Shown: piece after piece, positions 18,701 through 60,078 of the stretch | How the letters are laid out: each line of letters begins with the position of its first letter | Position numbering within the stretch: position 1 is the first letter of the stretch | NCBI RefSeq assembly: GCF_026914265.1 | Contig: NC_069136.1 | Location: 31,029,201 to 31,093,200 of the forward strand | Direction: 5' to 3' | DNA from: Mya arenaria | Lineage: Eukaryota; Mollusca; Bivalvia; Myida; Myidae | DNA: 64,000 bases | The notes under the pieces: generated by a model | Seen by the model: only the letters and a program-made list of their open reading frames with translations | Database searches by the model: none | Told to the model about the DNA's origin: nothing | Made by a program: the position numbers and the translations under genes

Positions 18701-19785
18701 TCGCTCTGACAGCCTACAAAGCACGACCACCCGTACACGAGATGGCTTTGACAACCTACAAAGCACGGCCATCCGTACAAGAGATCGCTCTGACAGCCTA
18801 CAAAGCACGATCACCCGTATACGAGATTGCTTTGACAACCTACATAGCCCGGCCACCCGTACAAGAGATGGCTCTGACAACCTACATAACACGACCATCC
18901 GTACAAGAGATTGCTCTGACAACCTACAAAGCACGAGCACCCGTACAACAGATCGCTCTGAAAGCCTACAAAGCACGACCACCCGTACACGAGATGGCTT
19001 TGACAACCTACATAGCACGACCACCCGTACAAGAGATGGCTCTGACAACCTACATAGCACGGCCATCCGTACAAGAGATGGCTCTGACAACCTACAATGC
19101 ACGGTCATCCATACAAGAGATGGCTCTGACAACCTACATAGCACGACCACCCGTACAAGAGATGGGTCTGACAACCTACATAGCACGACCATCCGTACAA
19201 GAGATGGCTCTGACAACCTATCAAAGCACGACCATCCGTACAAGAGATGGCTCTGACAACCTACATAGCACGACCAGCCGTACAAGAGATGGCTCTGACA
19301 ACCTTTCAAAGCACGACCATCCGTACAAGATATGGCTCTGACAACCTTCATAGCACGACCACCCGTAAAACAGTTTGCTCTGACAACCTACATAGCACGA
19401 CCACATATACAAAAGATGGCTCCGACAACCTACATAGCACGACCACATATACAAAAGATGGCTCCGACAACCTACATAGCACGACCACATATACAAAAGA
19501 TGGCTCTGACAACCTACATAGCACGACCACATATACAAAAGATGGATCTGACAACCTACATAGCACGACCACATATACAAAAGATGGATCTGACAACCTA
19601 CATAGCACGACCACATATACAAAAGATGGATCTGACAACCTACATATCACGACCACATATACAAAAGATGGCTCTGACAACCTACATATCACGACCACAT
19701 ATACAAAAGATGGCTCTGACAACCTTCATAGCACGACCACCCGTACAAGAGATGGTTCTGACAACATACAAAGCATGAATAGGAG
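15780..19785. repeat. 4-kb 42-bp minisatellite (about 95 copies) with higher-order repeat
   Basis: Tandem 42-bp units containing GCACGACCATCCGTACAAGA then GATCGCTCTGACAACCTACA. The unit is a codon multiple, so several frames stay open on both strands for hundreds of codons (14-residue period). Interruptions such as CCTAGAAAG occur at about 17371 and again at 18505, exactly 1134 bp or 27 units apart, and flanking variant units repeat at the same offset, showing a higher-order duplication. The right end (19390-19740) is dominated by a younger subfamily with ACCACATATACAAAAGATGG. No signal peptide or unique sequence is attached to the open frames. Confidence 0.95.
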
Positions 19786-24300: not shown

Positions 24301-27300
24301 TTTCATACATATATTTTGTTATTTAGCGTTGTACCCAAAGATCCATTGCAAGACAACTGCCGGGGTTGGTGGGGTTGGGTATGGGTATGGGTAGACTTAA
24401 ACTGCTTTAAAAACGTATTTTCGTTGGTAAGATAAATTAGACTGATAATATTGCATTCATTGTATTTGCCGTATTGCGGGACGTTCGTGTTACATCAAGA
24501 GTTCTTACATTTATTTACCGAGTAATAATTTGTTTTCCGAGTTCATATAGATGAATTGCTGGAAAACTATACAAGTAATTTTGCATAACAAATACACGGT
24601 ACGTTCAAATTTCCTTTTGTTATAATTATTAACATGTGTTACAGCTCATGTCTTAATTAAACTTTTATTAACGCATGTATATTCTATTTCTGCTTCACAC
24701 AAAAACTGCATAAAACTTCGTTTCCCAACATAAAAGGTGTTTAGACATGAAACAATCGGCCGTATAATACCCATGTAAGTGCAGTAGCGGTCGAAAAGAT
24801 AAATAATGCAAATATTCAATAACAAATAGCTGAAACAGGTACAAGAATGGTAAACTTGGGCCGAAAACACAGTTTCAAGTCACGCAATTTTCTATTTTCA
24901 CTTTGTAAACAATCAATCGTTCAGCTTATACATTCAATAACTTTTTTGTAAAGGCCTCTAGAAACATAGGTTAAAAAACCGAGAGACGCTTACGCGTGTG
25001 GTCTCCGGGTAGGCGTATTTATATTGCGAGAAAGGTGATATAACTTACTTACCCGGTGAAAATACATCCTTGAAACAACGGAATTCCTTTCCACGCCGCC
25101 ATTTTATTCGGCTTCACACAATTTCCCTCACTTAAAATTCGGCGAACACATTTCACGTTGGACCCCCTGCTCAGTCAATGTTTCAGCTGTGTATTCAAAC
25201 TGCAAAAATGCACACAACGACAAAAGAAAGTATCCAGTTTTATTTTTTCGATAATTTTTTATTTTCTAAATATTTTCCTACGAGAGGCAAACTCCGCAAA
25301 CGATCTTAGCGATAAAACACCATTTACAGATCCTATAAAAAGAGCCAAACTAGGACAACATTATAACGATAGTAATTCAAGCCTATTGCAGAAAAAGCAA
25401 GATGTATCGGTTGTATTTGTTGTGTAGCCAGTAAAACCATTTTTGCAATTGTCAAAATTTTAGTATTGTACTTTTTTACAATTTAGCATTGCATTTGTCA
25501 AAAAGAAACAACTTATCAACGTTAACGCTTGGCTCGAATTACTCGTTGGCTCGAACTGGATGTAAAGGACCAAATTCTTAATACTGAAGGTAAAAATTCT
25601 CGCTTGGCTCGATATTTTCGAGACTTGGGGTATTTTCGCTGGTCCCTGGGAGTTCAAGCCAAGAGGATTGGCTGTTATGCATGCTATGATGATTGTTTTG
25701 ATGATCATAATCTGTATATGCTTGTATCTAAATCAATGTTCTGTTCTGTTCTGTTCTGATAGCTAAATTACTTATTCAGCGCTATTTTAAGACCATAGAA
25801 TTCCCACTACATGGCAAATATCGGGACAAATCGAAACTGTATACCTTCTTTTCAGTGTATGTCTTGTAACTTCTACAGAAAAAAAGATTGATAATATACT
25901 GCATACTTTATTTATTTCATTAGACGTTATCTGAGAAGAAAAGCAACTGTTTCAACGTGATGTCAAACATAACAGCGCTTGAAGAGCAAATTCAGGTACA
26001 GTCAATATGAAATCCGTGTAATTTACGGGTTTTGTTGTAGCTTATGATAGTTTTGGTAGATCAGTTTGTAATGAATATTAGTGAAAATCTGATGTAAATT
26101 ATGTTAGCTTGTTCGCGGTTAAAGCCATGGCATTTAGTAGTAAATCATATGAAATATTTCTTACAGTAATTAGTAATAAAATAATTATGCAATATAGCGA
26201 TGTATTTTTAACCATATATTCTTATAAAAAGGCAGTCATCCAAATGCGAAATTAGTGTTACAATTAAGCGATGCAAGGATTTAATAAAATAATACGCAGG
26301 TGTTTTCTATTAAATCTGCACATTTGAGTCAATATATTAAAGCAGACAAATACCCCGGGATTTTGTTTTAAAGACAACTTAAAAATTATTGTCCGAGTGC
26401 CAATCGACGAATGACTCCAAATAAAACTCTTGCCGATTCCACAGAGTCTCGGGAGCGAGGTGGACGCCCGGGCCGTCCATCTGGTCAACATGGCGGCCAA
26501 CAACCGGTCACAGACGAGCGCACACCTCAACAACGAGAGTATGGCCGAAAATACACAGGTCCGATATCTCCACTGATTGAGACCATTTTTTTCCAATATC
26601 TGTCAAACAAACGTACAGCTTTCGTGCTGCTGCCAGCAAAATCGAACCAGATCATAAAAAGAATGTTTAAATAATTGTTTTATTCTGGTACCTTGTTTAC
26701 TAATTTTAAATATTATAATATATATATAATTATATAATATTATATTGGCTGATATTCACTAGTCTATTGAAATTATGAAATTGACCGATTGTTAACATTC
26801 TGTTATTTCCTTCTCAGCGGTGCCTAACTGGAGTGCGTAAGGCGTGGCGCTGGTTGGACGAGATGATGCAGTGCACACACGTTCACCTAGCTAACGCCGC
26901 GGCGTACCACGAGGTAAGTTGGACGATATCATGCAGTGCACCCAAGTTCAACTAGCTAACGCCGCGGCGTAACACGAGGTTAGTTGGACGATATCATGCG
27001 GCAGTGCACTTACGTTCACATAGCTAACGCCGCGGCGTACCACGAGGTAAGTTGGACGATATCATGCAGTGCACCCACGTTCAAAAAACTTATTCGGGAA
27101 CTTGTCTTTGGGATTTGCTTGCAATATATTGATTTATCTGTTCCGTACAATGACGTTGTTTTGACTGTTTTTCTGTACCTGACATTATTGTATAAACAAG
27201 CATATACTTGTAGTTTCTTTATGCGCCTCTTTCCGTGGTCGCGCTGCGTCTATGCAATGGTTGTGTATTTGTTTCCTTCCGTGTTACAGTTTTTCCACGA

Positions 27301-39925: not shown

Positions 39926-40614
39926 CCACCGGGGTACGACACGTGATCTAGGATTAATATGCTCTATACCAGGTCTTGGAAGCCACCGGGGTACGACACG
40001 TGATCTAGGATTAATATGCTCTATACCAGGTCTTGGAAGGCACCGGGGTACGACACGTGATCTAGGATTAATATGCTCTATACCAGGTCTTGGAAGTCAC
40101 CGGGGTACGACACGTGATCTAGGATTAATATGCTCTATACCAGGTCTTGGAAGTCACCGGGGTACGACACGTGATCTAGGATTAATATGCTCTATACCAG
40201 GTCTTGGAAGTCACCGGGGTACGACACGTGATCTAGGATTAATATGCTCTATACCAGGTCTTGGAAGTCACCGGGGTACGACACGTGATCTAGGATTAAT
40301 ATGCTCTATACCAGGTCTTGGAAGTCACCGGGGTACGACACGTGATCTAGGATTAATATGCTCTATAACAGGTCTTGGAAGCCACCGGGGTACGACACGT
40401 GATCTAGGATTAATATGCTCTATAACAGGTCTTGGAAGTCACCGGGGTACGACACGTGATCTAGGATTAATATGCTCTATAACAGGTCTTGGAAGTCACC
40501 GGGGTACGACACGTGATCTAGGATTAATATGCTCTATAACAGGTCTTGGAAGCCACCGGGGTACGACACGTGATCTAGGATTAATATGCTCTATAACAGG
40601 TCTTGGAAGTCCTT
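39926..40614. repeat. 57-bp highly homogeneous minisatellite (12 copies)
   Basis: Twelve nearly identical 57-bp units containing CACCGGGGTACGACACGTGA then TCTAGGATTAATATGCTCTA. The first seven units have TATACCAGG and the last five TATAACAGG, indicating block-wise growth. Each unit holds a CACGTG site. As 57 is a codon multiple, a 282-codon + strand frame (39825-40673) with a 19-residue period runs through it; homogeneity including silent positions argues against selection on protein. Confidence 0.95.
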
Positions 40615-42600: not shown

Positions 42601-43099
42601 GTAAGTGATGTGTTCTTTCATTGGGAATTTCAATTAGCTTATCCTGATAGCTTGTTTTTTATTCAAATTGATTAAAAAAAAATGGCCTAAAGATATGAGG
42701 TTGGTTAAATGGTGTTAATTAGGTCGAATATTAAAATATTTTCGCGTAATTAAAATTAGTTATCCAAGTGCGTTGTGTGATATTTCTATTCAGCTTAATG
42801 TCCGTTCACATGCGAAGCTGTTTTAGAACTTGATTAGGGATCTTATTTAAATTAATCTTTTAAATGTGCATGTGTTGTTTTTTTCTCTTACGTAGAGGAA
42901 TTTACACTTATGAGTTTGTTCATGTATTCTAAAAACTGACGGCATGTGGAATCAGTTCTAGGAAATAACATTTTGATAGATGAATCCGAATCGGATGTTT
43001 TTAGCGTTTATTTGAATATATTATTTGATTTAGATTGTTAACGGCATATGTTTTACAATAATCATAAACAAGATTATAAAAAAATAAGTGCTTCACCTA

Positions 43100-43134
43100 A
43101 GCACGCGCACGCACATGCACGCACGCACGCACGC

Positions 43135-43187
<53 letters not shown>

Positions 43188-43188
43188 C

Positions 43189-43219
<31 letters not shown>

Positions 43220-43222
43220 ATA
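43100..43222. repeat. compound (CA)n and (TA)n microsatellite
   Basis: GCAC/CACG-rich start, then (CA)n, then (TA)n, in the EB-A 5' intron. Simple-sequence DNA only. Confidence 0.95.
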
Positions 43223-43278
43223 AGCCAATGAGGAGGTCGATGAACTGTTATTTTGTAAGGCGAAATGTGTGTATACAG

Positions 43279-43800
43279 CACACTATTATAATACCAAACT
43301 CCGCGCAGTGTTACTTCCCTTGCAGTACAGTAATCACTGCCACCACAAGATTTTCATCCAAAATTGGATGAAAACTTTTAATGGCATTTTTTTTAATCAT
43401 ATATATTTATTCTTATATCCTTTCTTAAATAATTACTTTACGCCAGTTGATAGGCATAATATGTTTTATAAAAAAATAACAATTAAAAAAAACATTCGGA
43501 AATGTTCGGTCTTTTTTCAAATTGAAAGTAGGATTTACAAATTACAATATCAACATGGATGTGTTGTTAGCTATTCAGACATGTATCGAACGTTTTGCAT
43601 TTTTTCCTTTTATGGAATAAAATCGTTTATTTTCTAAACAAATGAAACATGTTGCTGGAATTTCTTTTAAAGGTGTTCCGTCCATTTTGTAAATTGCAAT
43701 CACGTGCCGTTTCTATCATCACGTGATATTTGTGAAGGCAGTGATTACTGTACTGCAAGGGAAGTAACACTGCGCGGAGTTTGTTATAATACACTATAAT
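43279..43800. mobile_element. 0.5-kb foldback MITE
   Basis: Inverted arms of about 60 bp (about 43281-43342 and 43737-43797) share AACTCCGCGCAGTGTTACTT and then CCCTTGCAGTACAGTAATCA on opposite strands, enclosing about 0.4 kb of AT-rich DNA. It has no coding capacity. It lies in the 5' UTR intron of EB-A. Confidence 0.8.
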
Positions 43801-44219
43801 TATTAAGTTCATTTACCTTCGTCAACTGCGTTTCTGTTTGATAGAAGACTTCCTCGCGGGAAAAGTCCGCACAAACTCGACGCACCTGGAGCCTTTTTAT
43901 AAGCTGTCGCGTTGTTGCTATCTCCTGACCCCCCCCCCCCACACACACACAAAGTAATTAAAATAAAATAAATAAATAAATATAAAAGGGAACAATTAAA
44001 TAAGATAATATGAATTGTGTATGAGTGGGAATCCTTTGTCCTTTGTACACATGTTCATTATTACACGAATCTGCCATTTTAATAAAACTTTTTCTGCGTA
44101 ATGCAGATCTATGCTTCATGAAACTATATGGTATTAATAAGAGTGTCAACCACTGTATGATTGACATTTATTTGACTGATTTAATTACATTACTTTCCAG
44201 GAAATATTCCAAGTCCGAC

Positions 44220-44418
44220 ATGTCTCGTGCTCCACTATTCTCACTGACGGTCGTGTGCCTCTTTGCACGTTCAGTGAACGCGGTGGCGCTTAATGCCGCG
44301 TGCTCAGCGACGTCAGACTGCACGGTGACGAACTCCGAGTGCTCCAAGATGATTTCCACGTGCTCAAAGGGAACGTGCACGTGCAAAAATGGCTACATGG
44401 AAGACAGTAGCACATGCA
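44220..44418 (+). CDS. EB-A coding exon 1
   Basis: Start ATG 19 nt after acceptor tactttccag; signal peptide (M-S-R-A-P-L-F-S-L-T-V-V-C-L-F) and EB module 1. Ends TGCA before gtgagt, phase 1. Confidence 0.88.
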
Positions 44419-47400
44419 GTGAGTAAATTCCTGCTGGCCAAGTATAAGAATAGCTAAGATATTGGCGCCAGATTCGTGCCACCATAATATTCTCAATCGA
44501 AGGCTTTGTCTATATGTCTTACAAAATGACTTTTTCAAAAATTATCATTACTCAAAAACTTTCTAGTCGTCAATGTTTTCCCAACTTAAGTGTAGAAGAT
44601 CATCTGAAATGAGCATTGAACCATCTTTGAGAGTGTCTACTTTTTCATCTTTAAAACATTAACTCCCATATCGGAACGGTAGCAAAAAGGCGGAGCTTAA
44701 CCGTTCAAAAACTAACGTTAAATTACAACGCTATTCACTTTTACGAACGCTCTTCAGTGAAATTTGCCCTCGTAAACATTGTACAACCCATAGTCATAAT
44801 CCATCCCATGTTACAGAACTGATGGTAGACAACGGTGGAACATGCGACGCTAACAAGTATTGTACAGGCGGTACCACGTGTCAGACCACCACATGCGCCT
44901 GTCCGACCGGGACCATCTATCACTCGGGAGTCAAAATGTGCATTACCGACGGAAAGAAACTCATCAGCGAGGTGTGCACGGCTGACTCTGACTGCTATGA
45001 GGGAACCACGGGTAAGGCGTCCACATTCTCATTATATTACGAGAGTATCATGTGTTTCAATTTCACACTGCGGTATGATCACCAACTTGAATGAACAGGA
45101 GTTTTTTTAGATTCCCTGTGACGTTCTGCAGGCGTCCAGTCTGTTATCCGATCATTAACTTAAGAAGTGTGAAATCATTATCGAAATTGGTCAGAATGTG
45201 TATAATCAAAATATCTCGGAAACCATATCGGTTGATTCGATCGAGAGTTATCGCCCCTTAAGTATATAACATTACTTAAAATATGTCCCATCAATAACTT
45301 TAGAAGCTTTTATCCGGTCATCACCAATTTTGGTCATTATGTGTATTGGCTTAATATCTTGAAAAAGATCCATAACCAGCCATATCGCGAGTTATTCGAG
45401 AGTCATCGTCCTTTATTTAAACAAATTTCCTAAAGTTGATCTTGTTCGACCAATTACTTTAGTAACCTTTGTCCGATCATCAACAAACTTAGACAATATT
45501 TTTGTTCACCGAACAACTCGGTCAGGTACGATATTAAAAAGAGAATATACCATTTATACATTTAAAACTAGCTACAAGTAACATGTATTCTTTATTTCAG
45601 AGTCCGAGTGTGTGGCGAATACTGGAACCACCACCCCCAAGTACTGCCGCTGTAAATCAGGCTACGTGCTCGATAGCACATACTTTTGCACGAAACGTAA
45701 GAATCGTACATTTAAGGTGTCCCTTACACAGCTTAGTTTGTTCGCTCCAACATTTGCGTCAGACTTTAATGTTCGAAATTATAATTTGAACAATCGGGAT
45801 GCAGTAATTTTCAAATTTTCAAATTCGCCGTACAATTATTTTGGTAATTCAGCTGATAGTTGTTATTGATTTAAACTAGGTAAAGCGGTTGTTGTTTTTT
45901 GTCAGTAGGCAAACTATAATTCGAACACTAAGCCTAGATGAATGTTTGCTATAAATATAAATTTATTAATCTTGTCTCCAAGGTTGTAACCTGACGCTAG
46001 ACATACTGTTTATCTGACGATGAACATTTACGTAATTTCCAGCTAACCTAGACACTGCCTGTACGAGCGCGGTAGGCTGCGTTTCCATGACGTCGACGTC
46101 AATGTGGACATCATCGGGCCAAGTGTCTGAGACGTGCCAGAACAACATGTGCGCCTGCCCCAGCGGATCAGACAAATTCACATACACATACAGCTCCGCT
46201 GATTTCAAGATCTGCCAGAGTAGGAAATAAAGTTTGATTCCTATGTAAAAACTCTGAATTGGACTTGTAATTAAATATAAATTGTAAAGTAAACATAATA
46301 TATCAAGCGCAGAGAATTACGTTTTACCCAATTTTCCGAATAATGTGGAATTTTGTTTTATCATTGTTACAGTGTTTGGCACATTTGTAGTGAAAAATGA
46401 TGTTGTCAAACCTGTTTCACCAATGTTAATGATTTCATATTATAATAGTTCTGTATCAACCTCAACACGACGAGGTCCATACAGGTCTTGGTGACATTTT
46501 CGCTCCCATCTTCCTATCCCAATATTTCATGCTCCAGCCACGGCCACAGGTAGTAGCAACGACAAAGCGGACGGCGCGACCTGCACGGCGTCTAACACGT
46601 GCAAGTCGAAAGTGTGTTACCAGTGCCCCGGCGATTCCACGAGCAAGTGTGTCACAATCAGTGAGTTTACCTTTAACATACCTATGTCAAAAGAACATGC
46701 GTTGATTTCGATCGAAATAATTGCAAATCATACAATACCATATTAACACAGGATTTATTATCAGTCAGGAATGATGGAAATACATTGTAAATCATCACTG
46801 AGGGATTATATATAACACACGCAATTTGACGATTTTATTAAAAATGCCCAACAAATAAATACTGTAGATTACAGAATACATTGATAACAAAATACATAGA
46901 AAACAAAACACATAGATAACGGAATACATCGAAAACAGAATACATAGCTAACATAATACAAAGAAAACAGAACACATATATAACAAAACACATAGATAAC
47001 AGAATACAAAGAAAACAGAATACATAGAAAACAGAATACATAGAAAACAAAAATCATAGATAACCGAATACGTAGAAAACAGAATACAAAGATAACGAAA
47101 TACATCGATAACAGAATACAATGATAACAAAATACATAGAAAACAAAATACATCGAAAACAAAGTACATAGATAACAGAATACATAGAAAACAGAATACA
47201 TAGATAACAGAATACATCGATAACGGAATATATCGATACCAGAATACATCAAAAACAGAATACATAGAAAGCAGAATTCATAGAAAACAGAATACATAGA
47301 TAACAGAATACATAGATAACAGAATACATTGAAAACAGAATACATAGAAAACAAAGTACATAGATAACAGAATACATAGAAAACAGAAAACATATATAAC

Positions 47401-48242
47401 AGAATAATAAATAACATAATACATAGATAACAGAATATATAGAAAACATCATTACATCGCTAACAGAATACATAGATAACAGAATATACAGAAAACAGAA
47501 TACATCAATAACAGAATATATCGAAAACAGAAGACATAGGTAACAGAATACAGAGATAACATAATACATATAAAACAGAATACATCGATAACAGAATACA
47601 TAGAAAACAGAATACATCGAAAATAGAATACATAGATAACAGAATATATAGATAACATAATACCGAGATAACAGAATACATAGATAACATAATACATAGA
47701 TAACATAATACATAATTATAAAACAGAATACATAGAAAACAGAATACATAGAAAACAGAATACATCGATAACAGAATACATCGATAACAGAATACATAGA
47801 AAACAGAATGCATAGAAAACAGAATGCATATACAACAGAATACATAGATTATATAATACATAGATACAGAATACATAGATAACAGAAAACATCGATAACA
47901 GAACACATAGACAACGGAATACATAAACAACAGAATACATAGATAACAGAATACATAGATTACAAAAAAACATAGAAAACAGAATACTTTTTTATCCTAT
48001 CACGCAGGGTAAATCGATGTTTCTACAGTCGGATCTTCGAAATGATATGACACCAATTCCCTGGTATTTATAGTAAACAATGTCATAACCAACAACATAC
48101 ATATTATAATTCATTAATGATTGAAGCTTCTCGCAATATTTACATGTCAAATACCTTTCTTTCAGCCGCTGGTAATGGCGCCGATGGTATTTCCGGTTTG
48201 GTTGTATCGCTACTGGTTCCCTGTCTTCTTCTTCTGAAGTAA
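44220..48242 (+). CDS. EB-A: secreted EB-module cysteine-rich protein, probable GPI anchor
   Basis: Six coding exons (199, 195, 96, 177, 123, 77 nt) join in frame to 288 residues plus stop; all five internal introns are phase 1. Residues about 1-21 are a hydrophobic signal peptide ending near V-N-A. Five cysteine-rich modules follow, with patterns such as C-x6-C, C-x-C and G-x-C-x-C (for example T-C-A-C-P-T-G and Y-C-R-C-K-S-G-Y), which fit the EB domain family of invertebrate extracellular proteins. The last 25 residues are small residues followed by V-V-S-L-L-V-P-C-L-L-L-L-K, a typical GPI-attachment signal, though a short membrane anchor is possible. EB-B, 4.4 kb downstream, is a paralogue with the same exon plan. 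Biological role unknown; such proteins are often annotated as prion-like or tenascin-like in molluscs because of weak similarity only. Confidence 0.85.
44817..45011 (+). CDS. EB-A coding exon 2
   Basis: 195 nt, acceptor atgttacag, donor gtaagg. Module 2 with N-K-Y-C-T-G-G-T-T-C and C-A-C-P-T-G, and the start of module 3 (D-S-D-C-Y-E-G). Same length as EB-B exon 2. Confidence 0.92.
45012..45600. repeat. dispersed repeat, about three diverged tandem modules, in EB-A intron 2
   Basis: From about 45120 to 45540, roughly 150-bp modules recur with words such as CCGATCAT, TTGGTCAGAATGTGTAT / TTGGTCATTATGTGTAT and CGAGAGTTATCG / CGAGAGTCATCG. Style resembles abundant bivalve dispersed repeats. No coding potential. 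Confidence 0.6.
45601..45696 (+). CDS. EB-A coding exon 3
   Basis: 96 nt, acceptor tttatttcag, donor gtaaga. Encodes S-E-C-V-A-N-T-G then Y-C-R-C-K-S-G-Y-V-L, the second half of module 3. Confidence 0.92.
46043..46219 (+). CDS. EB-A coding exon 4
   Basis: 177 nt, acceptor aatttccag, donor gtagga. Module 4 with S-S-G-Q-V-S-E-T-C-Q then C-A-C-P-S-G-S. Same length as EB-B exon 4. Confidence 0.92.
46538..46660 (+). CDS. EB-A coding exon 5
   Basis: 123 nt, acceptor tgctccag, donor gtgagt. Module 5: G-A-T-C-T-A-S-N-T-C-K-S then Y-Q-C-P-G-D-S-T-S-K-C. Confidence 0.92.
46860..47990. repeat. 16-bp minisatellite in EB-A intron 5 (about 70 copies)
   Basis: Copies of ATAACAGAATACATAG with A/G variants. 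As 16 is not a codon multiple, three units give a 16-residue periodic frame, and - strand frames stay open for up to about 200 codons with Phe/Tyr/Cys/Leu-rich text. Strong strand asymmetry: the + strand is purine-rich with almost no G runs. Not present in the equivalent intron of EB-B. Confidence 0.95.
48166..48242 (+). CDS. EB-A terminal coding exon 6
   Basis: 77 nt from acceptor ctttcag to TAA. Encodes the hydrophobic C-terminal tail (G-L-V-V-S-L-L-V-P-C-L-L-L-L-K). A 121-codon - strand frame overlapping this exon is a shadow. Confidence 0.85.
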
Positions 48243-48387
48243 TGTGATCAGCTGGTAACCAGCAGAAGTAGCCTCCATTCATCCGTACCATTAAACCCAT
48301 CACCTGTGTTTGGAGAACTTTCGACTTTCCTTGGAAATAAGCAACACAGGTGCACAAAATGAACAGTTACAAGTTCTACTGGACTTA

Positions 48388-48393
48388 AATAAA
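48388..48393 (+). terminator. polyadenylation signal AATAAA for EB-A
   Basis: AATAAA lies 146 bases after the EB-A stop, followed by another A-rich AATAAAAATG. A second AATAAA occurs at about 48756 and could define a longer 3' end. Confidence 0.5.
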
Positions 48394-48785
48394 ATAAAAA
48401 TGTGTAACATGTTTAAAGCAACAAATGGCACCGAAACTGTCGCCGACCGTTAACACTTTATGTTGATATTTTATAGGTATTTATTCTTGTAGTCACATAT
48501 AGTAACAATTATGTTTGTGCACGCCGCATAAAGGAAAAATCCAGCTTTTCTAGAAAACAATAATGCATGAAATTTCGACACTAAAGGAAAAAAAGTACTT
48601 AAACTATATTATAACGAGTTTTCTTTCCATCTTATTTATGTATTGTATATCACTGTGTATTTTATATTCCGTTTAGTGCTTAAACACAAAATGAAGTCAA
48701 TATTTGACCGATACAGTGTGTTCCAAGTACACTTCACTTTTATAACTTATGAAAAAATAAACCATAAACGATTTATTTGTTGTAA

Positions 48786-51700
48786 GTTAATGGAGCCGTT
48801 ATCAGGCAATGCGTTTGGATAATTTTGGGCTTCATCAACCTTTTTGGTGCTTTATGGAGCCTTTATCAGGCAATGCGTTTGAATAATCTTGGGCGCCATC
48901 AACCTTGTGGTGCTTTATGGAGTCGTTATAAGGCAATGCCTTTGGGTAATCTTGGGCGCCATCAACCTGTTGGTGCTTTATGGAGCCTTTATCAGGCAAT
49001 GCTTTAGGGTAATCTTGGGCGCCATCAACCTGTTGGTGCTTTATGGAGCCTTTATCAGGCAATGCTTTAGGGTAATCTTGGGCGCCATCAACCTGTTGGT
49101 GCTTTATGGAGCCTTTATCAGGCAATGCTTTAGGGTAATCTTTGGCGCCATCAACCTGTTGTTGCTTTATGGAGCCTTTACCAGACACTGTTTTAGGGCA
49201 ATCTTGGGCGTCATCAACCTTTTTGGTGCTTTATGGAGCCGTTATCAGGCATGCTATCGGTACATCTTGGGCGTCCAAAAACTGTTGTTGCTTATGGAAC
49301 GTTTATCAGGCATGGTATAGAGTAATCTTGGGCGTCAATAAACTGTTGTTGTTTTATGGAACGTTTATCAGGCATGTGATAGGGTAATTTTGGGCGTCAT
49401 TAAACTGTTATTGTCTTATGGAACGTTTATAAGGCATGCTATAGTGAAATCTTGGGCGTCATTAAACTGTTGTTGTCTTATGGAACGTTTATCAGGCATG
49501 CTATAGTGAAATCTTGGGCGTCATTAAACTGTTGTTCACTCGTTGAACGTTTATCAGGCATGCTATAGTGTAATCTTGGGCGTCATTAAACTGTTGTTAA
49601 CTCATTGAACGTTTATCACTCATGCTATAGTGTAATCTTGGGCGTCATTAAACTGTTGTTAACTCTTTGCAAGTTTATCACTCATGCTATAGTGTAATCT
49701 TGGGCGTCATTAAACTGTTGTTAACTCATTGAACGTTTATCACTCATGCTATAGTGTAATCTTGGGCGTCATTAAACTGTTGTTAACTCATTGAACGTTT
49801 ATCAGTCATGCTATAATGTAATCTTGGGCGTCATTAAACTGTTGTTAACTCATTGAACGTTTATCAGTCATGCTATAGTGTAATCTTGGGCGTCATTAAA
49901 CTGTTGTTAACTCATTGCACGTTTATCAGTCATGCTATAGTGTAATCTTGGGCGTCATTAAACTATTGTTAACTCATTGAACGTTTATCAGTCATGCTAT
50001 AGTGTAATCTTGGGCGTCATTAAACTGTTGTTAACTCATTGAACGTTTATCAGTCATGCTATAGTGTAATCTTGGGCGTCATTAAACTATTGTTAACTCA
50101 TTGAACGTTTATCAGTCATGCTATAGTGTAATCTTGGGCGTCATTAAACTATTGTTAACTCATTGAACGTTTATCACTCATGCTATAGTGTAATCTTGGG
50201 TGTCATTAAACTGTTGTTAACTCATTGCACGTTTATCACTCATGCTATAGTGTAATCTTGGGCGTCATTAAACTGTTGTTAACTCATTGAACGTTTATCA
50301 GTCATGCTATAGTGTAATCTTGGGCGTCATTAAACTGTTGTTAACTCTTTGCACGTTTATCACTCATGCTATAGTGTAATCTTGGGCGTCATTAAACTGT
50401 TGTTAACTCATTGAACGTTTATCAGTCATGCTATAGTGTAATCTTGGGCGTCATTAAACTGTTGTTAACTCATTGAACGTTTATCAGTCATGCTATAGTG
50501 TAATCTTGGGCGTCATTAAACTGTTGTTAACTCATTGAACGTTTATCAGTCATGCTATAGTGTAATCTTGGGCGTCATTAAACTGTTGTTAACTCATTGA
50601 ACGTTTATCACTCATGCTATAGTGTAATCTTGGGCGTCATTAAACTATTGTTAACTCATTGAACGTTTATCAGTCATGCTATAGTGTAATCTTGGGCGTC
50701 ATTAAACTGTTGTTAACTCATTGAACGTTTATCAGTCATGCTATAGTGTAATCTTGGGCGTCATTAAACGGTTGTTAACTCATTGAACGTTTATCACTCA
50801 TGCTATAGTGTAATCTTGGGCGTCATTAAACGGTTGTTAACTCATTGAACGTTTATCACTCATGCTATAGTGTAATCTTGGGCGTCATTAAACGGTTGTT
50901 AACTCATTGAACGTTTATCAGTCATGCTATAGTGTAATCTTTGGCGTTATTAAACTCTTGTTAACTCATTGAACGTTTATCAGTCATGCTATAGTGTAAT
51001 CGTGGGCGTCATTAAACTAGTGTTGCTTTATGGAACGTTTATCAGTCATGCTATAGTGTAATCTTGGGCGTCATTAAACTATTGTTGCTTTATGGAACGT
51101 TTATCAGTCATGCTATAGTGTAATCTTGGGCGTCATTAAACTGTTGTTAACTCATTGAACGTTTATCAGTCATGCTATAGGGTAATCTTGGGCGTCATTA
51201 AACTGTTGTTAACTCATTGAACGTTTATCAGTCATGCTATAGTGTAATCTTGGGCGTCATTAAACTGTTGTTAACTCATTGAACGTTTATCAGTCATGCT
51301 ATAGTGTAATCTTGGGGGTCATTAAACTGTTGTTAACGTATTGAACGTTTATCACTCATGCTATAGTGTAATCTTGGGCGTCATTAAACTGTTGTTAACG
51401 TATTGAACGTTTATCAGTCATGCTATAGGGTAATCTTGAGCGTCATTAAACTGTTGTTAACTCATTGAACGTTTATCAGGCATGCTATAGTGAAATCGTG
51501 GGCGTCATTAAACTGTTGTTAACTCATTGAACGTTTATCACTCATGCTATAGTGTAATCTTGGGCGTCATTAAACTGTTGTTAACTCATTGAACGTTTAT
51601 CACTCATGCTATAGTGTAATCTTGTGCGTCATTAAACTGTTGTTAACTCATTGAACGTTTATCACTCATGCTATAGTGTAATCTTGGGCGTCATTAAACT

Positions 51701-52130
51701 GTTGTTAACTCATTGAACGTTTATCACTCATGCTATAGTGTAATCTTGGGCGTCATTAAACTGTTGTTAAGTCATTGAACGTTTATCAAGCATGCTATAG
51801 GGTAATCTTGGGCGACCACAACCTGGTGTTGCTTTATGGAACGTTTATCAGTCATGCTATAGGGAAATCTTGGGCGTCCACAACCTGGTGTTGCTTTATG
51901 GAACATTTATCAGTCATTCTATAGGGTAATCTTGTGCGTCATTAAACTGTTTTTGCTTTATGGAACGTTTATCAGTCATTCTATAGGGAAATCTTGGGCG
52001 TCATTAAACTGTTGTTGCTTTATGGAACGTTTATCAGGGATGCTATAGGGTAATCTTGGGCGTCCACAACCTGTTTTCGCTTTATGTAGCGTTAATCTGT
52101 AGTGTTATAGGGTAATCTCGCGCATCACCA
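48786..52130. repeat. 3.3-kb 62-bp minisatellite between EB-A and EB-B (about 53 copies)
   Basis: Unit of 62 bp containing GAACGTTTATCAGTCATGCT then ATAGTGTAATCTTGGGCGTC and ATTAAACTGTTGTTAACTCA. Edges (48786-49500 and 51790-52120) keep an older form with CTTTATGGAGC/CTTTATGGAAC in place of AACTCATTGAAC; the centre is homogenised with the TTAACTCATTG form, as expected if growth happens inside. Confidence 0.95.
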
Positions 52131-52599
52131 AGATGTTGACACCAAAAAAGCAAGTTTAGCAGGCGTACTTAATGTTATATTAGGGTATTGGTTACCTTGC
52201 GCAGTAACAACCTATTGTATTCTAAAGTAGCCTTTCCGGGCTTGGTATTGGTTTTTTAGCGCTAGAACAACCTATTGATGTCTAAAGTAGCTTTATCGGG
52301 TTCATCAGATGCCTCTCATTATCCGACAAAATAAAATGTAAAACTGATCATTATACTGTGGCATAATCTTAATGAGATAAGTGACACCCATTATACTTAA
52401 TAAAGTATTTATGACTTATCATATCACATCGAAGGAATTACTTTAAATAGAATCTGATAACAAGATTGACTCTTCCTGCCCACTGCCACTTGCCGCCAAG
52501 TGATGGTAACATATAGATACTAAGGAATTTTGGACCTTCGACTGCACGTGACTATGGCCATCCGAAATGAACTAAATCCCTCGTCGGTGTCACAAACAG
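52131..52599. promoter_or_regulatory. upstream region of EB-B
   Basis: About 470 bp between the 62-bp array and the EB-B start. Two diverged direct copies of CTATTG(T/A)-TCTAAAGTAGC near 52213 and 52270 precede AT-rich DNA. The sequence acaaacag ends 18 nt before the ATG, matching the position of the EB-A acceptor, so a 5' UTR intron is possible but the pyrimidine tract is poor. No TATA box recognised. Confidence 0.35.
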
Positions 52600-52617
52600 A
52601 GACATTTTAAAGACACT

Positions 52618-52822
52618 ATGAGGCATTCCCTTGCACACTTCATTGTTTGTATGGGCAGTGCTTTGGTTGCTGTTAACGGCATAGAAGTGGGAGAACCATG
52701 TCTGAACAGCGATTATTGTCAGGTGACGACGACCAACTCTTGGTGCTATAAGCAGTTCGTCAACTGTGTTCGAGGTGTGTGCCGATGTATGGAGGACTAT
52801 TATCTGGACGGAAACGTCTGTA
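52618..52822 (+). CDS. EB-B coding exon 1
   Basis: Start codon followed by a signal peptide and module 1 (G-E-P-C-L-N-S-D-Y-C then V-C-R-C-M-E-D-Y). Ends GTCTGTA before gtaagt, phase 1, as in EB-A. Confidence 0.88.
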
Positions 52823-55800
52823 GTAAGTATACATTCCTATGCTTATCATGTCAATCATATAACATTGTCACTGCGCCACAACCCGAGTTAAACTTGATTA
52901 AATCAATCCCGATAGTCTTGTGTGACGAAATCATGTATCATGTCCCCAATGATAACGTTCAAAAACGCGTGGTTTAAGTGAATAACGTTATTTATTCGCA
53001 TGCCAATAGCCGAACTGTTTAGCTCCGCCTACTTGTTTCCATTCCGATATGGTGGTGTAAAAACAATAGAAGTATGAAAAAGTAATTTCAGCAAGAACTT
53101 AATTATGGAGTAAGCAATATTAGAAGTTTGTTAAGACCACAATGCTCGGAGAAACCAGAGCAATCACACGTTGTTCGGTAACTCAACCGAACCCAAAAAC
53201 AAACTCAAATATACGTGCTGTTATTTGTCATACGTTGATTATTATCTCCCCAGAACGAATGGTATACTCCGGGGAGCCTTGCAATGCTAACAAGTTCTGT
53301 ATGGGCGGGGCGTCGTGCACGGCAGGGACGTGTCAATGTCAGCCTAGCTACACGTGGAACACGAAACTCGACATGTGCATCCCAACAGTCCAGAAGGCAA
53401 TCGGGGATACTTGCCTCAGCAACTTCGACTGCTTTGAGGGAGCTCTAGGTAGGAATTGATACTTTGAAGGAGCTCTAAGTAGGAATTGATACTTTGAGGG
53501 AGCTCTAGGTAGGAATTGATGATTTGAGGAAGCACTAGTGATGATTTGAGGGAGCACCAGGTAGGAATGGAGGATTTTAGGAAGCACAAGTGATGATTTG
53601 AGGCAGCACCAGGTAGGAATGGAGGATTTGAAGAAGCACTAGTGATGATTTGAGGGAGCACCAGGTAGGAATTGATGATTTTAGGAAGCACTAGTGATGA
53701 TTTGAGGAAGCACCAGGTAGGAATGGAGGATTTGAGGAAGCACTAGTGATGATTTGAGGGAGCACCAGCTAGGAATGGAGGATTTGAGGAAGCACTAGTG
53801 ATGATTTGAGGGAGCACCAGGTAGGAATGGAGAATTTGAGGAAGCACTACTGATGATTTGCGGAAGCACCACGTAGGAATAGAGGATTTAAGGAAGCACT
53901 AGTGATGATTTGAGGGAGCACCAGGTAGGAATGGAGGATTTGAGCATTATGAAGGAATTGATCATTCTTCTTTCTCTTTTCATATTTTAAAATAAGGTGT
54001 TCGTGGTGGGAATAGATAAGTTGAGGAAGTAATTGGTGGGAATTGATAAGTTGAGGAAGTAATTGGTGGGAATTGATAAGTTGAGGAAGTAATTGGTGGG
54101 AATATATAAGTTGAGGAAGTAATTGGTGGAAATTGATAAGTGAGTTCCGTTATGTAATAGACTCATGAACACGTAACAATACAAATGCGTACGTAATCAA
54201 ATATGCTTATTTCGATACGTTGTGTAGCATACACATCTTGATCAACGTTCACAAGAAAGATAACGCCTTTGAATATGTTTCATTAATATCTGACTCCTCT
54301 ATTTTAAATGCGGAATGTGTAGGAATCAAGACACCGCGCTAGTGCCACTGTAGATATACGGTTTCATCTAGCGCATCTCTTTCAGAGGCAGAATGCGTGT
54401 AAGACATTGTCGCTGTAGATACGTCTACATCTGGTTCATCTCTGTTTCAGAGATGAAATGCGTGTAGGACATTGTCGCTGTAGATACGGCTACACCTAGT
54501 TCACCTGTTTCAGAGGCAGAATGCGTGTAAGACATGGTCGCTGTAGATACGGCTACATCTAGTTCACCTGTTTCAGAGGCAGAATGCGTGTAAGACACTG
54601 TCGCTGTAGATACGGCTAAACCTAGTTCACCTGTTTCAGAGGCAGAATGCGTGTAAGACACTGTCGCTGTAGATACGGCTACACCTAGTTCACCTGTTTC
54701 AGAGGCAGAATGCGTGTAAGACACTGTCGCTGTAGATACGGCTACACCTAGTTCACCTGTTTCAGAGGCAGAATGCGTGTAAGACATTGTCGCTGTAGAT
54801 ACGGCTACATCTAGTTCACCTGTTTCAGAGACAGAATGCGTGTAAGACATTGTCGCTGTAGATACGGCTACATCTAGTTCACCTGTTTCAGAGGCAGAAT
54901 GCGTGTAAGACACTGTCGCTGTAGATACGGCTACATCTAGTTCACCTGTTTCAGAGGCAGAATGCGTGTAAGACATTGTCGCTGTAGATACGGCTACATC
55001 TAGTTCACCTGTTTCAGAGGCAGAATGCGTGTAAGACATTGTCGCTGTAGATACGGCTACATCTAGTTCACCTGTTTCAGAGACAGAATGCGTGTAAGAC
55101 ACTGTCGCTGTAGATACGGCTACATCTAGTTCACCTGTTTCAGAGGCAGAATGCGTGTAAGACATTGTCGCTGTAGATACGGCTACACCTAGTTCACCTG
55201 TTTCAGAGGCAGAATGCGTGTAAGACACTGTCGCTGTAGATACGGCTACATCTAGTTCACCTGTTTCAGAGGCAGAATGCGTGTAAGACACTGTCGCTGT
55301 AGATACGGCTACACCTAGTTCACCTGTTTCAGAGGCAGAATGCGTGTAAGACATTGTCGCTGTAGATACGGCTACACCTAGTTCACCTGTTTCAGAGGCA
55401 GAATGCGTGTAAGACATTGTCGCTGTAGATACGGCTACACCTAGTTCACCTGTTTCAGAGGCAGAATGCGTGTAAGACATTGTCGCTGTAGATACGGCTA
55501 CATCTAGTTCACCTGTTTCAGAGGCAGAATGCGTGTAAGACATTGTCGCTGTAGATACGGCTACATCTAGTTCACCTGTTTCAGAAGCAGAATGCGTGTA
55601 AGACATTGTCGCTGTAGATACGGCTACATCTAGTTCACCTGTTTCAGAGGCAGAATGCGTGTAAGACATTGTCGCTGTAGATACGGCTACATCTAGTTCA
55701 CCTGTTTCAGAGGCAGAATGCGTGTAAGACATTGTCGCTGTAGATACGGCTACACCTAGTTCACCTGTTTCAGAGGCAGAATGCGTGTAAGACATTGTCG

Positions 55801-57687
55801 CTGTAGATACGGCTACACCTAGTTCACCTGTTTCAGAGGCAGAATGCGTGTAAGACACTGTCGCTGTAGATACGGCTACACCTAGTTCACCTGTTTCAGA
55901 GGCAGAATGCGTGTAAGACATTGTCGCTGTAGATACGGCTACATCTAGTTCACCTATTTCAGAGGCAGAATGCGTGTAAGACACTGTCGCTGTAGATACG
56001 GCTACACCTAGTTCACCTGTTTCAGAGGCAGAATGCGTGTAAGACATTGTCGCTGTAGATACGGCTACACCTAGTTCACCTGTTTCAGAGGCAGAATGCG
56101 TGTAAGACATTGTCGCTGTAGATACGGCTACATCTAGTTCACCTGTTTCAGAGGCAGAATGCGTGTAAGACATTGTCGCTGTAGATACGGCTACACCTAG
56201 TTCACCTGTTTCAGAGACAGAATGCGTGTAAGACATTGTCGCTGTAGATACGGCTACACCTAGTTCACCTGTTTCAGAGGCAGAATGTGTTGCAGACATC
56301 GGTACAAAGACACCCCGCTATTGTCGCTGTAGATACGGTTTCATCACACACATGCACACGTGCAGGTCACGTAAGTGAAGGGCAGCAGTGTTGTATACAA
56401 TTTGGCGAATTACCTAGGTATATGTGCATATTACAGAATTTTACTGGGATTACATCGTTTCTTTCATATTAAACATGTTAAAGGAAGAATCTTAAATGCG
56501 TTATTTGTATTAAAATATTGTCACATTAATATTTTAATTGTATAGAGAATAGTTGAAAATACGATTTGTTAGCTATTTATACATCTTTTCTAAATTCTAG
56601 TTCATGACGTAAGCTTTAACAGCCTCTAGACAACCGCAACCTTATACTGTCAATCATGGACGTCTGTACCAAGTCACGCAGACTGGCAAAATATTATCTA
56701 CGAAAATATGTGTTTGTTTTCACCCTCCAGTATGGTATGAAGCTACAGTAAATGGGGTAATCCTCGATTGTCATTGGCCCATATATATGTGTGAACACCA
56801 AATGTGGTTTCATGTGGTTAAATGACCAGTACACATCATTATCCGTTCTTGGACAACTCGACTTATCATCACACAATAACTGCATACACTCATTAAAATG
56901 GTATAGAAGAGTACGTTCTTTACAGCTCATGTTGACCAATCATGCTCTTCGATTTCCTGTGCAAGACAGATTGACGTTACCGAACTGTTAACGTCATCAG
57001 GTCAAGTGACAGAAACGTGCCAGAGCGGTACGTGCAAGTGCCCAAGCACGGCCAAAGACGTTACCATACAAGATCACGGCGAGACAAATCACATATGTCA
57101 ACGTAAGTACAGTGATATTAACAGTCAACATATTGTAAACTGTTATAACTGTTACTATTCATAGGATGATAGTGCAGTGTAAACACATGAAATTTCAGCT
57201 TACGTCTGTACTCATGTTCCAGTGCGGGATACATCTCAAGCTGGGATAGGCGACGGGGTGTGGTGTGAATCATCGAAGACGTGCAAATCCCACTTCTGTG
57301 CAAAGTGCCCCGGGGAACCAACAAGTATCTGTGTAACACAAGGTAACACAACCAACCCACTTACAAAATTCTAAAAAAAATAATCGATATCGATGAATAT
57401 GATATAGGTTATACATCATCACAATCTCTATCCACATTCAAATATACGGAATGATAAATGTTTCTACTGCTGAGCATTAGGCAATCAATGGCCATTCTCT
57501 ATACGATTTTACTAAATAATTATTTTATAGTAAAAGTCATATATTAACACAGAATGTTATGACATAAAATCGGTTAGAGAAATATTTGTAAAAATCATTA
57601 TTTTCAGTACAAAGTAAGGCAGCAAGTGCTTCCCTGCTTGTTTGGACGTGGCTGGTGCCAGTCCTCCTGTCTAGTGGACGTCTGTAA
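52618..57687 (+). CDS. EB-B: secreted EB-module cysteine-rich protein, paralogue of EB-A
   Basis: Six coding exons (205, 195, 93, 177, 120, 80 nt) join in frame to 289 residues plus stop, all introns phase 1, exon for exon like EB-A. Signal peptide M-R-H-S-L-A-H-F-I-V to about V-N-G; five cysteine-rich EB-like modules (for example C-Q-C-Q-P-S-Y, Y-C-R-C-R-Y-G-F, C-K-C-P-S, F-C-A-K-C-P-G); C-terminal tail with small residues then L-L-V-W-T-W-L-V-P-V-L-L, fitting a GPI signal. The two genes are an old tandem duplication: cysteine spacing and exon lengths are kept while most other residues differ. Introns 2 is swollen by junction-derived repeats up to exon 3. Function unknown; cell-surface or secreted extracellular role is inferred from signal and tail. 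Confidence 0.85.
53254..53448 (+). CDS. EB-B coding exon 2
   Basis: 195 nt, acceptor atctccccag, donor gtagga. Module 2 (N-K-F-C-M-G-G-A-S-C, C-Q-C-Q-P-S-Y-T-W) and start of module 3 (N-F-D-C-F-E-G-A-L). Its last 20 bases and donor are repeated downstream. Confidence 0.92.
   Translation, partial: NEWYTPGSLAMLTSSVWAGRRARQGRVNVSLATRGTRNSTCASQQSRRQSGILASATSTALREL
53449..53957 (+). repeat. minisatellite seeded by the exon 2/intron 2 junction of EB-B
   Basis: The junction TTTGAGGGAGCTCTAG/gtaggaattgat is repeated twice more at once as a 30-bp unit (about 53460-53520), then passes into about nine copies of a roughly 52-bp compound unit containing GATTTGAGGGAGCACCAG/gtaggaatgg and GATTTGAGGAAGCACTAGTG. 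Most copies keep CAG/GTAGGA, so the true donor is followed by a row of look-alike donors. Confidence 0.93.
54004..54142. repeat. 30-bp minisatellite (about 4.5 copies)
   Basis: Unit AATTGGTGGGAATTGATAAG plus TTGAGGAAGT in EB-B intron 2. GGGAATTGAT and TTGAGGAAG words resemble the neighbouring junction-derived array, so it may be a diverged offshoot. Confidence 0.88.
54305..54372 (+). pseudogene. decayed full-length-type copy of EB-B exon 3
   Basis: Words GCGGAATGTGTAGGAATCAA, GACACCGCGCTAGTGCCACT and GTAGATATACGGTTTCATC line up in order with exon 3 at 56278-56345 (GCAGAATGTGTTGCAGACAT, GACACCCCGCTATTGTCGCT, GTAGATACGGTTTCATC). It carries frame breaks and lies just before the 63-bp array, so it brackets the array on the left as the real exon does on the right. 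Confidence 0.8.
54375..56277 (+). repeat. 63-bp array derived from the acceptor and start of EB-B exon 3 (about 30 copies)
   Basis: Each 63-bp unit contains the acceptor CACCTGTTTCAG, then AGGCAGAATGCGTGTAAGAC, then TGTCGCTGTAGATACGGCTA. These are the acceptor, the first bases and an internal part of exon 3, with about 30 bases of the exon missing between. Units differ at a few positions only (C/T and A/G). The + strand exon frame has a stop in each unit (GTG-TAA). On the - strand the codon-multiple unit yields a 624-codon frame with a 21-residue period, rejected as a gene. Confidence 0.95.
56278..56370 (+). CDS. EB-B coding exon 3
   Basis: 93 nt, acceptor ctgtttcag (identical to that in the preceding array units), donor gtaagt, phase 1/1. 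Encodes A-E-C-V-A-D-I-G-T-K-T-P then Y-C-R-C-R-Y-G-F-I-T, the counterpart of EB-A exon 3. Confidence 0.9.
56926..57102 (+). CDS. EB-B coding exon 4
   Basis: 177 nt, acceptor ttctttacag, donor gtaagt. Encodes D-Q-S-C-S-S-I-S-C then S-S-G-Q-V-T-E-T-C-Q and C-K-C-P-S-T. Length and the SSGQVxETCQ motif equal EB-A exon 4. Confidence 0.9.
57223..57342 (+). CDS. EB-B coding exon 5
   Basis: 120 nt, acceptor gttccag, donor gtaaca. Encodes G-D-G-V-W-C-E-S-S-K-T-C-K-S then C-A-K-C-P-G-E-P-T-S. An upstream alternative acceptor (aatttcag, 57197) exists. Confidence 0.88.
57608..57687 (+). CDS. EB-B terminal coding exon 6
   Basis: 80 nt from acceptor attttcag to TAA. Encodes S-K-A-A-S-A-S-L-L-V-W-T-W-L-V-P-V-L-L, a plausible GPI omega site plus hydrophobic tail. 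Confidence 0.85.
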
Positions 57688-57959
57688 AGAACTGGCAGTC
57701 GTTCACCTCATAGGTTGCTGTATCTACAAGGTTTTCATCCCTTGCCAAATCAACTTGAACTTTTCAAATAATCAACACAAGGAATGGTCACTTTTGCAAT
57801 TGCTTGGATGGACACAATACAAAAATCTCTTTCGCGAAAACAGTGTTTAAAAACAGTGTATACTCAATATATATCGTGTTAATTTTTAACATAGTTAATT
57901 GTCTTCTCTCGTGTAATATTCATTAAATGTAACTGATTTTATCACCAACTCCGCCTGAT

Positions 57960-60078
57960 ACTGCCTTGTTGTATGTACACCTGATCACCAGTCTATGGTT
58001 ATATGTACAACTGATCACCAGTCTATGGTTATATGTACACTTAATCACCAGTCTATGGTTATATATACACTTCATCGCCAGTCTATGGTTATATGTACAC
58101 TTCATTACCCGTCTATGGTTATATGTACACTTCATCGCCAGTCTATAGTTATAAGTACACTTCATCGCCAGTCTATGGTTATATGTACACTTCATCGCCA
58201 GTCTATGGTTCTATGTACACTTCATCACCAGTCTATGGTTGTATGTACACTTCATCACCAGTCTATGGTTCTATGTACACTTCATCACCAGTCTATGGTT
58301 GTATGTACACTTCATTGCCAGTCTATGGTTGTATGTACACTTCATCACAAGTCTATGGTTGTATGTAGAGTGCATCATAAGTCTATGGTTATATGTACAC
58401 TTCATCACCAGTCTATAGTCATATGTACACTTCATCACAAGTCTATGGTTCATGAACACTTCATCACCAGTCTATGGTTATATGTACACTTCATCACCAG
58501 TCTATAGTGATATGAACACTGCATCACACGGCTATAGTTATATGTACACTTCATCACAAGTCTATAGATATATATACACTTCATCACAAGTCTATTGATA
58601 TATATACACTTCATCACAAGTCTATAGTTATATGTACACTTCATCACAAGTCTATAGTTATATGTACACTGCATCACAATTCTATAGATAAATATACACT
58701 TCATCACAAGTCTATTGATATATATACACTTCATCACAAGTCTATAGTTATATGTACACTTCATCACAAGTCTATAGTTATATGTACACTGCATCACAAT
58801 TCTATAGTGATATGAACACTGCATCACAAGTCTATAGATATATGTACACTGCATCACAATTCAATAGATATATATACACTTCATCACAAGTCTATAGTTA
58901 TATGTACACTTCATCACAAGTCTATAGTTATATGTACACTGCATCACAATTCTATAGATATATATACACTTCATCACAAGTCTATAGTTATATGTACACT
59001 TCATCACAAGTCTATAGTTATATGTACACTGCATCACAATTCTATAGTGATATGAACACTGCATCACAAGTCTATAGTTATAGTACACTTCATCACAAGT
59101 TTATAGTTATATGTACACTTCATCACAAGTCTATAGTTATAGTACACTTCATCACAAGTCTATAGATATATGTACACTTCATCACAAGTCTATAGTTATA
59201 GTACACTTTATCACAAGTCTATAGTTATAGTACACTTCATCACAAGTCTATAGTTATAGTATACTTCATCACAAGTCTATAGTTATATGTACACTGCATC
59301 ACAATTCTATAGTGATATGCACACTGCATCACAAGTCTATAGTTATATGTACACTTCATCACCAGTCTATAGTTGTATGTACACTTCATCACCAGTCTAT
59401 AGTTGTATGTACACCCGATCACCAGTCTATTGTTATATGTACACTTCATCACACTTATCAATCTTGAGTTGTATGTACACCCGATCACCAGTCTTTTGTT
59501 ATATGTACACTTCATCACACTTATCAGTCTTGAGTTGCATGTACACCCGATCACCAGTCTATTGTTATATGTACACTTGATCACACTTATCAATCTTGAG
59601 TTGTATGTACACCCGATCACCAGTCTTTTGTTATATGTACACTTCATCACACTTATCAATCTTGAGTTGTATGTACACCCGATCACCAGTCTATTGTTTT
59701 ATGTACACTTGATCACACTTATCAATCTTGAGTTGTATGTACACCCGATCACCAGTCTTTTGTTATATGTACACTTCATCACACTTATCAATCTTGAGTT
59801 GTATGTACACCCGATCACCAGTCTTTTGTTTTATGTACATTTCATCACACTTATCAATCTTGAGTTGTATGTACACCCGATCACCAGTCTTTTGTTTTAT
59901 GTACATTTCATCACACTTATCAATCTTGAGTTGTATGTACACCCGATCACCAGTCTTTGGTTTTATGTACTTTTCATCACACTTATCAATCTTGAGTTGT
60001 ATGTACACCCGATCACCAGTCTTTTGTTTTATGTACATTTCATCACACTTTTCAGTCTGGAGTTGTATGTACACTTCA
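57960..60078. repeat. 2.1-kb 30-bp minisatellite with 66-bp derived unit
   Basis: Left part (57960-59400): about 48 copies of a 30-bp unit, TATATGTACACTTCATCACC plus AGTCTATGGT, with ACAAG and ACAAT subfamilies grouped in blocks. Right part (59400-60060): about ten copies of a 66-bp unit made of two diverged 30-bp units plus ACTTATCAATCTTGAG. Both units are codon multiples, giving spurious frames. Confidence 0.95.

Follow-up and report, generated by a model that had tools for sequence, protein, structure and literature searches.

Mirage-like minisatellites at both splice junctions of one intron in a predicted EB-module gene of the clam Mya arenaria

Minisatellites that span exon-intron boundaries have been described in lancelets under the name of mirages. 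They occur in Adh3, in the globin genes BflGb6 and BflGb9, in TnC and in PGBD5 (PMC3087553, PMC3902484) and, in the available portions of both papers, are reported not to disturb regular splicing. It has been considered that they may be general among cephalochordates and might offer one way for new introns to arise (PMC3087553). Human exon-intron boundaries, too, carry variable internal tandem repeats (PMC2812944). Intron gain by tandem duplication has been proposed in the Rogers model (PMC3087553), with a case in the potato RdRp gene (PMC4974935), and the first intron of earthworm metallothionein genes contains minisatellites (PMC12783039). In molluscs, the accessible part of a paper on gastropod hemocyanin introns describes no boundary-copy arrays (PMC7931591), and among the matches listed for open-licence PMC papers none reports a mollusc mirage in its title or at the start of its abstract.

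Here we consider a locus of the bivalve Mya arenaria at which both ends of one intron are arrayed with copies of their own splice junctions. The analysis covers a single stretch of 64 kb (the window). EB-B is a predicted six-exon gene for an EB-module protein. Its exons join into an open frame of 289 aa, in which EB modules are recognised in three stretches (Pfam, E 2.2e-10). The exons, together with the elements of intron 2, are given below in their order on the DNA (a slash marks a splice site).

52618 to 52822, plus strand: EB-B exon 1, signal-peptide-like start and first EB-type segment, donor A/GTAAGT; placed by similarity to EB-A exon 1 and by the intact frame into exon 2.
53254 to 53448, plus strand: EB-B exon 2, EB module, donor CTAG/GTAGGA; Pfam EB PF01683 with E 9.7e-9 for the translation of this exon alone, 195 nt in both EB-A and EB-B.
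53432 to 53944, plus strand: donor-side array, copies of the final 17 bases of exon 2 and the opening bases of intron 2, at first in the form of a 30-mer, further on in that of a 52-mer; Tandem Repeats Finder (TRF) and shuffle scores.
54004 to 54141, plus strand: second 30-bp array, weak (score 28 against a shuffle maximum of 22).
54302 to 54368, plus strand: fuller copy of exon 3 and its acceptor, now decayed, found by alignment; in-frame stop, several indels, acceptor AG lost.
54380 to 56287, plus strand: 63-bp array of exon-3 acceptor and exon body, whose 30 units all carry a TTTCAG acceptor-like site; TRF and unit alignment.
56278 to 56370, plus strand: EB-B exon 3, the live exon, TTTCAG/AGGCAGAATG ... 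GTCAC/GTAAGT; comparison with EB-A exon 3, intact.
56926 to 57102, plus strand: EB-B exon 4; comparison with EB-A.
57223 to 57342, plus strand: EB-B exon 5; comparison with EB-A.
57608 to 57687, plus strand: EB-B exon 6 as far as the stop TAA (57685-57687), encoding a hydrophobic C-terminus; comparison with EB-A.

The C-terminus of the predicted protein is probably GPI-anchor-like. A protein database search with the corrected model, among proteins 0.55 to 1.75 times the length of the query, found no annotated protein for EB-B; its sole match was MAR_013863, which is EB-A. A partial and partly misjoined EB-B model was likewise without any protein database match.

EB-A lies upstream and serves as the array-free reference for EB-B.

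44220 to 48241, plus strand: EB-A, tandem paralogue of EB-B with the same six-exon plan; protein match and comparison with EB-B.

Exon translations of EB-A retrieved a single protein in a protein search, MAR_013863 of M. arenaria. It can be laid along the window from 44157 to 48239 in six pieces, of which three are 100% identical (88, 47 and 24 residues) and three 97-98%, with the mismatches at exon ends. Exons 2 to 5 measure 195/195, 96/93, 177/177 and 123/120 nt in EB-A and EB-B, respectively, and all introns are in phase 1. The two proteins share 39% identity over 283 aligned codons, and their cysteine columns agree in 30 of 33. Third codon positions differ most (0.64, against 0.46 and 0.41); dN is 0.635, while dS is saturated and hence undefined. 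Intron 2 falls at the same codon and phase in both genes. Exon 3 of EB-A (45601-45696) matches that of EB-B, including the intron phase, and has no array. There are no local copies at either junction of EB-A intron 2 (45011 and 45601), and all 10 EB-A junctions score at background. The annotation of MAR_013863 enters EB-A exon 2 at 44870, while similarity to EB-B favours a standard acceptor at 44817, which would add about 18 residues (44817-44870). Upstream of EB-A, inverted repeats of 62 nt, 94% complementary, surround 381 nt (43287-43348 and 43730-43791); this element is possibly a small non-autonomous DNA transposon.

On the acceptor side of EB-B intron 2, TRF reports a period of 63 bp, 30.3 copies and 97% matches. 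Read in register, the array consists of one unit of 65 bp and 29 of 63 bp and directly abuts the live exon 3. The array of about 30 copies beside exon 3 that had been proposed from the letters alone is thus borne out by TRF and by the scores, at 54380-56287. Compared with the exon outside the array (56288-56400), the unit scores 41.5, as against a mean of 17.0 and a maximum of 32.0 in 300 shuffles. The longest exact blocks that the circular unit has in common with exon 3 and its acceptor are two. One is the 32 bp of ACACCTAGTTCACCTGTTTCAGAGGCAGAATG, which starts at 56256 and takes in array bases before the acceptor; the other is the 19 bp of ATTGTCGCTGTAGATACGG, from 56320. Between them, the unit has a net deletion of 22 bp relative to the exon. 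The description of the unit as a circularly permuted, internally deleted copy of acceptor and exon body was therefore correct. It had also been stated that exon 3 was itself converted into the satellite; this does not hold, since the live exon (56278-56370) is intact and EB-B is open over its 289 aa.

A 42-base unit pattern, allowing up to three mismatches, has 29 matches in the 64-kb window, all of them within the array, with a chance expectation of none; unit 2 exceeds the mismatch limit. A search for plasmid relatives gave none. The marker CTGTAGATA recurs at spacings of 65, 65 and 28 times 63 bases, with a last spacing of 85 that reaches into the live exon. The interior is homogeneous, with a mean of 1.07 differences in units 3-30. 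The upstream edge is divergent, unit 2 having 5 differences and unit 1 further changes besides its length of 65 bp; the final complete unit, next to the live exon, shows just 1 difference. The unit phylogeny that the original prediction proposed is uninformative, since the 29 units comprise 12 distinct sequences with essentially three informative sites. Units that lie side by side resemble each other no more than in shuffled order (P 0.52 and 0.22), so that local duplication of blocks has left no direct trace. Each of the three forward frames of the consensus unit contains a stop. The reverse strand of the array is spanned by an open frame of 630 aa (54425-56317). It was not taken as a gene: with a 63-bp unit the same frame recurs in every copy, and such an outcome is unsurprising (estimated at about 0.37 per frame).

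At the far end of the array stands the decayed exon copy whose presence had been predicted. It aligns to exon 3 with its acceptor (56272-56400) from the acceptor to 56345, with a score of 61.5 against a maximum of 30.5 in 300 shuffles, and retains part of the exon-3 middle block that is missing from the 63-bp units. Six of its seven exon substitutions relative to exon 3 are at third codon positions and two more lie in the acceptor, although these numbers are very small. Against the DNA of EB-A exon 3 there is no significant alignment (20.5, shuffle maximum 28).

The opposite end of the intron, which the original prediction did not mention, is arrayed as well. The donor-side repeats match the exon-2 junction with scores of 58 for the 30-mer (shuffle maximum 29) and 40 for the 52-mer (24.5). 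They contain 9 extra GTAGGA donor-like sites, 6 of them as CAG/GTAGGA. The array at 54004-54141 is probably a distant derivative of the same donor repeat, a weak match pointing that way. Taken together, 2610 of the 2829 bases of intron 2 (92%) would derive from its own two junctions, or 2472 (87%) if the weak array is left aside.

We consider it very probable that these are a pair of mirage-type minisatellites, which arose as boundary-spanning tandem duplications and expanded later. A segment of about 85 bp, comprising the acceptor and the first ~68 bp of exon 3, would have been duplicated in tandem; this length for the parent unit is read from the final 85-base spacing of CTGTAGATA. The outermost copy would then have decayed, stranded upstream of the array, while one of the middle copies was shortened by 22 bp and, in its 63-bp form, multiplied to 30 copies through slippage or unequal exchange. 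The copy adjoining the rest of the gene would have stayed a live exon under selection. The exon-2 donor junction presumably expanded likewise from the other side, making intron 2 almost wholly a product of its own splice junctions. The history first suggested for the locus was exon duplication, recombination between copies and expansion; the order duplication, deletion, expansion fits.

What might the arrays do? They are probably useless to the gene and probably harmless, as splicing is expected to remove the extra copies. If so, splicing would remain correct and the arrays neutral. Tolerance is expected on two grounds: a normal mRNA still results from the first donor and the last acceptor, and exon definition, which favours an acceptor with a true donor downstream, should single out the one acceptor that has such a donor about 90 nt on. 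Among these sites, only the combination of first donor and last acceptor yields the EB-B protein. When exon 2 is joined in its phase to any of the 30 array acceptors, a stop follows after five residues, and translation that continues beyond the exon-2 donor ends at a TGA no more than four codons on.

The same facts lend themselves to a regulatory reading, in which the 30 decoy acceptors and 9 decoy donors regulate splicing and the length of the array sets the share of productive EB-B mRNA. Over 16 nt, 27 of the 30 array acceptors match the live one exactly, and the donors of the 52-mer, CAG/GTAGGA, fit the general donor consensus better than the live TAG/GTAGGA. Unproductive site use would run into the immediate stops behind every array acceptor and behind the exon-2 donor. 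We nevertheless regard it as unlikely. The donor array and the 63-bp unit are not complementary (score 12, shuffle mean 16), and pairing between the two arrays was rejected on this ground. A structured RNA was rejected as well, as the fold of three units is unremarkable (z -0.91) and no Rfam family matches at its gathering score in 43000-60000. Recursive splice sites do not account for the array either: there is no AG/GT, the consensus unit reading TTTCAG/AGGCAG. The lancelet mirages, moreover, are those reported to have no effect on regular splicing (PMC3902484, PMC3087553, in the portions available).

It is improbable that the array, or its copy number, is an artefact of assembly. Tandem arrays are difficult to assemble, but the 12 distinct sequences among the 29 63-bp units and the divergence of the edge units argue against an artefact, and arrays are general here, 24 merged TRF blocks covering 34% of the window. 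The published M. arenaria assembly was built with PacBio long reads according to the part of its description available (PMC10663159), which also mentions RNA-seq of six tissues, and the window presumably comes from this assembly.

Could the exon be the recipient instead? In that case a pre-existing satellite would have been recruited, and the array would have supplied exon 3 with its acceptor and exon body. Identity to the unit extends over the live 3' splice site and the first 10 coding bases; the present acceptor is thus array-type sequence. This proposal is nevertheless close to refuted by EB-A, which has the homologous exon and intron position without an array. Both exon 3 and the decayed copy hold middle-block sequence that the units lack, and the middle block has a protein counterpart in EB-A (GTTTPKYC against GTKTPRYC). 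Exon 3 as the source of the array, the direction originally proposed, is therefore supported, because EB-A has the same exon and intron without an array and because part of the block missing from the units survives in the decayed copy. Least credible of all is that the units are alternative or mutually exclusive protein-coding mini-exons: an acceptor in the consensus unit is indeed followed 13 nt on by a donor-like GTAAGA, but a 13-nt exon would shift the frame, and an array of mutually exclusive exons was rejected because the units are not open exons, the consensus unit having stops in all three forward frames.

A third boundary array is found in a plakin gene of the window.

26853 to 27083, plus strand: 65-mer in which the final 60 bases of a plakin exon are joined to its donor GTAAG, 3.5 copies; TRF, score 104.5 against 32.5.

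The exon (26818-26913) aligns with plectin (3pe0, E 1.3e-11) and desmoplakin (3r6n, E 4.4e-10). Its donor at 26913 is followed by two more full copies and one partial copy of the last 60 bases with GTAAG. The live junction was placed by alignment, which is gap-free where the two exons join (AAYHE-FFHEV). An unrelated gene would here show the same boundary-array process. A 57-bp array with an open forward frame (39927-40611, 12 copies, 98% alike) follows the apparent last exon of the plakin gene at a distance of about 1.2 kb. Elsewhere in the window, a 42-bp array with a 126-bp higher-order period contains several long open frames on both strands (15786-19775), and two arms of 502 nt, 96% complementary, form an inverted repeat 1195 nt apart (22971-23472 and 24668-25169).

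How often junctions seed arrays was estimated from 41 junctions of three genes, 20 from EB-A and EB-B and 21 from the plakin gene; the set is confined to these genes of the window. The plakin exons were placed by eye from splice signals and frame, with donor p7 one base early and exon p9 entered without a donor. Local copies are found at 3 of the 41 junctions (53448, 56278 and 26913). Their scores, which in descending order are 88, 68 and 62, stand far above background; the other 38 junctions score 27 or less. For 1500 control positions outside arrays, the 95th percentile is 27, the 99th 36 and the maximum 78; about 0.3% of such ordinary positions reach the scores of the two EB-B junctions. 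In a post hoc simulation of random seeding of 25 arrays, whose repeat periods were hand-picked from the TRF output, 0.57 junctions are expected and 3 are seen (P 0.018). The excess is modest and suggestive only, because it was worked out after the cases had been seen and because two of the arrays share an intron; the two EB-B arrays may not be independent of each other. Selection presumably also shapes the survivors, coding repeats being removed while junction-spanning repeats can hide in an intron.

A more general extrapolation is doubtful, though not far-fetched. The splice junctions of this clam may be recurrent seeds of minisatellites, so that introns grow out of their own boundaries, and the process may be widespread rather than a lancelet oddity. 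Decoy sites might then vary in number between individuals and modulate splicing, and gene conversion might write a stop into exon 3, which is flanked by 32 and 19 bp identical to the units. With three clear examples within 64 kb of mollusc DNA, the phenomenon could be put to the test in animals at large; in one of them the paralogue is free of arrays, an early copy survives and the order of events can still be read. The locus opens the questions of the rate at which junctions are seeded, of how correct splicing is achieved amid some 30 near-identical acceptors, and of whether expression depends on the length of the array.

It remains to compare these arrays with the known systems. To call the 63-bp array something other than an ordinary intronic satellite, as had been done from the sequence, overstated its novelty, mirages being known in lancelets (PMC3087553, PMC3902484). 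Earthworm metallothionein genes resemble EB-B in having intronic minisatellite arrays in an invertebrate gene, but those arrays are not described as copies of an exon-intron boundary in the part of the paper available (PMC12783039). Rogers-type intron gain likewise involves tandem duplication of sequence bearing splice signals. In EB-B, however, no new intron was made, and intron gain by this route was rejected because EB-A has intron 2 at the same codon and phase. The human boundary repeats are also minisatellites at exon-intron boundaries and can change splicing; as described in the available text, they are found in recent primate segmental duplicates, average about 4 copies of 30 bp and can make novel introns (PMC2812944), whereas intron 2 of EB-B is old, being common to EB-A, and has been enlarged.

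The lancelet mirages are closest. All three clam arrays are tandem and minisatellite-like (63 bp x 30.3; the 30/52-mer; the 65-mer x 3.5), with a unit that spans the boundary of the adjoining live exon at 53448, 56278 and 26913. The exon-proximal copy is intact and the gene open for EB-B; for plakin, this is read from the aligned exon. Homogenisation of the interior with divergent units is seen at the upstream edge of the 63-bp array. A live exon that is kept, a homogenised interior and divergent edges are likewise reported for the lancelet arrays in the accessible text (PMC3087553). The clam case differs in its bivalve host, in affecting two boundaries of one intron, and in its 30 units, as against 6 and 3 in two lancelet BflGb6 haplotypes (same source). 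It also differs in the internal deletion and stops of the EB-B unit and in the preservation of a decayed fuller copy at the far end. As far as can be told, then, these are boundary arrays of the known mirage kind, in a new phylum, at both ends of one intron and with an unusually complete history.
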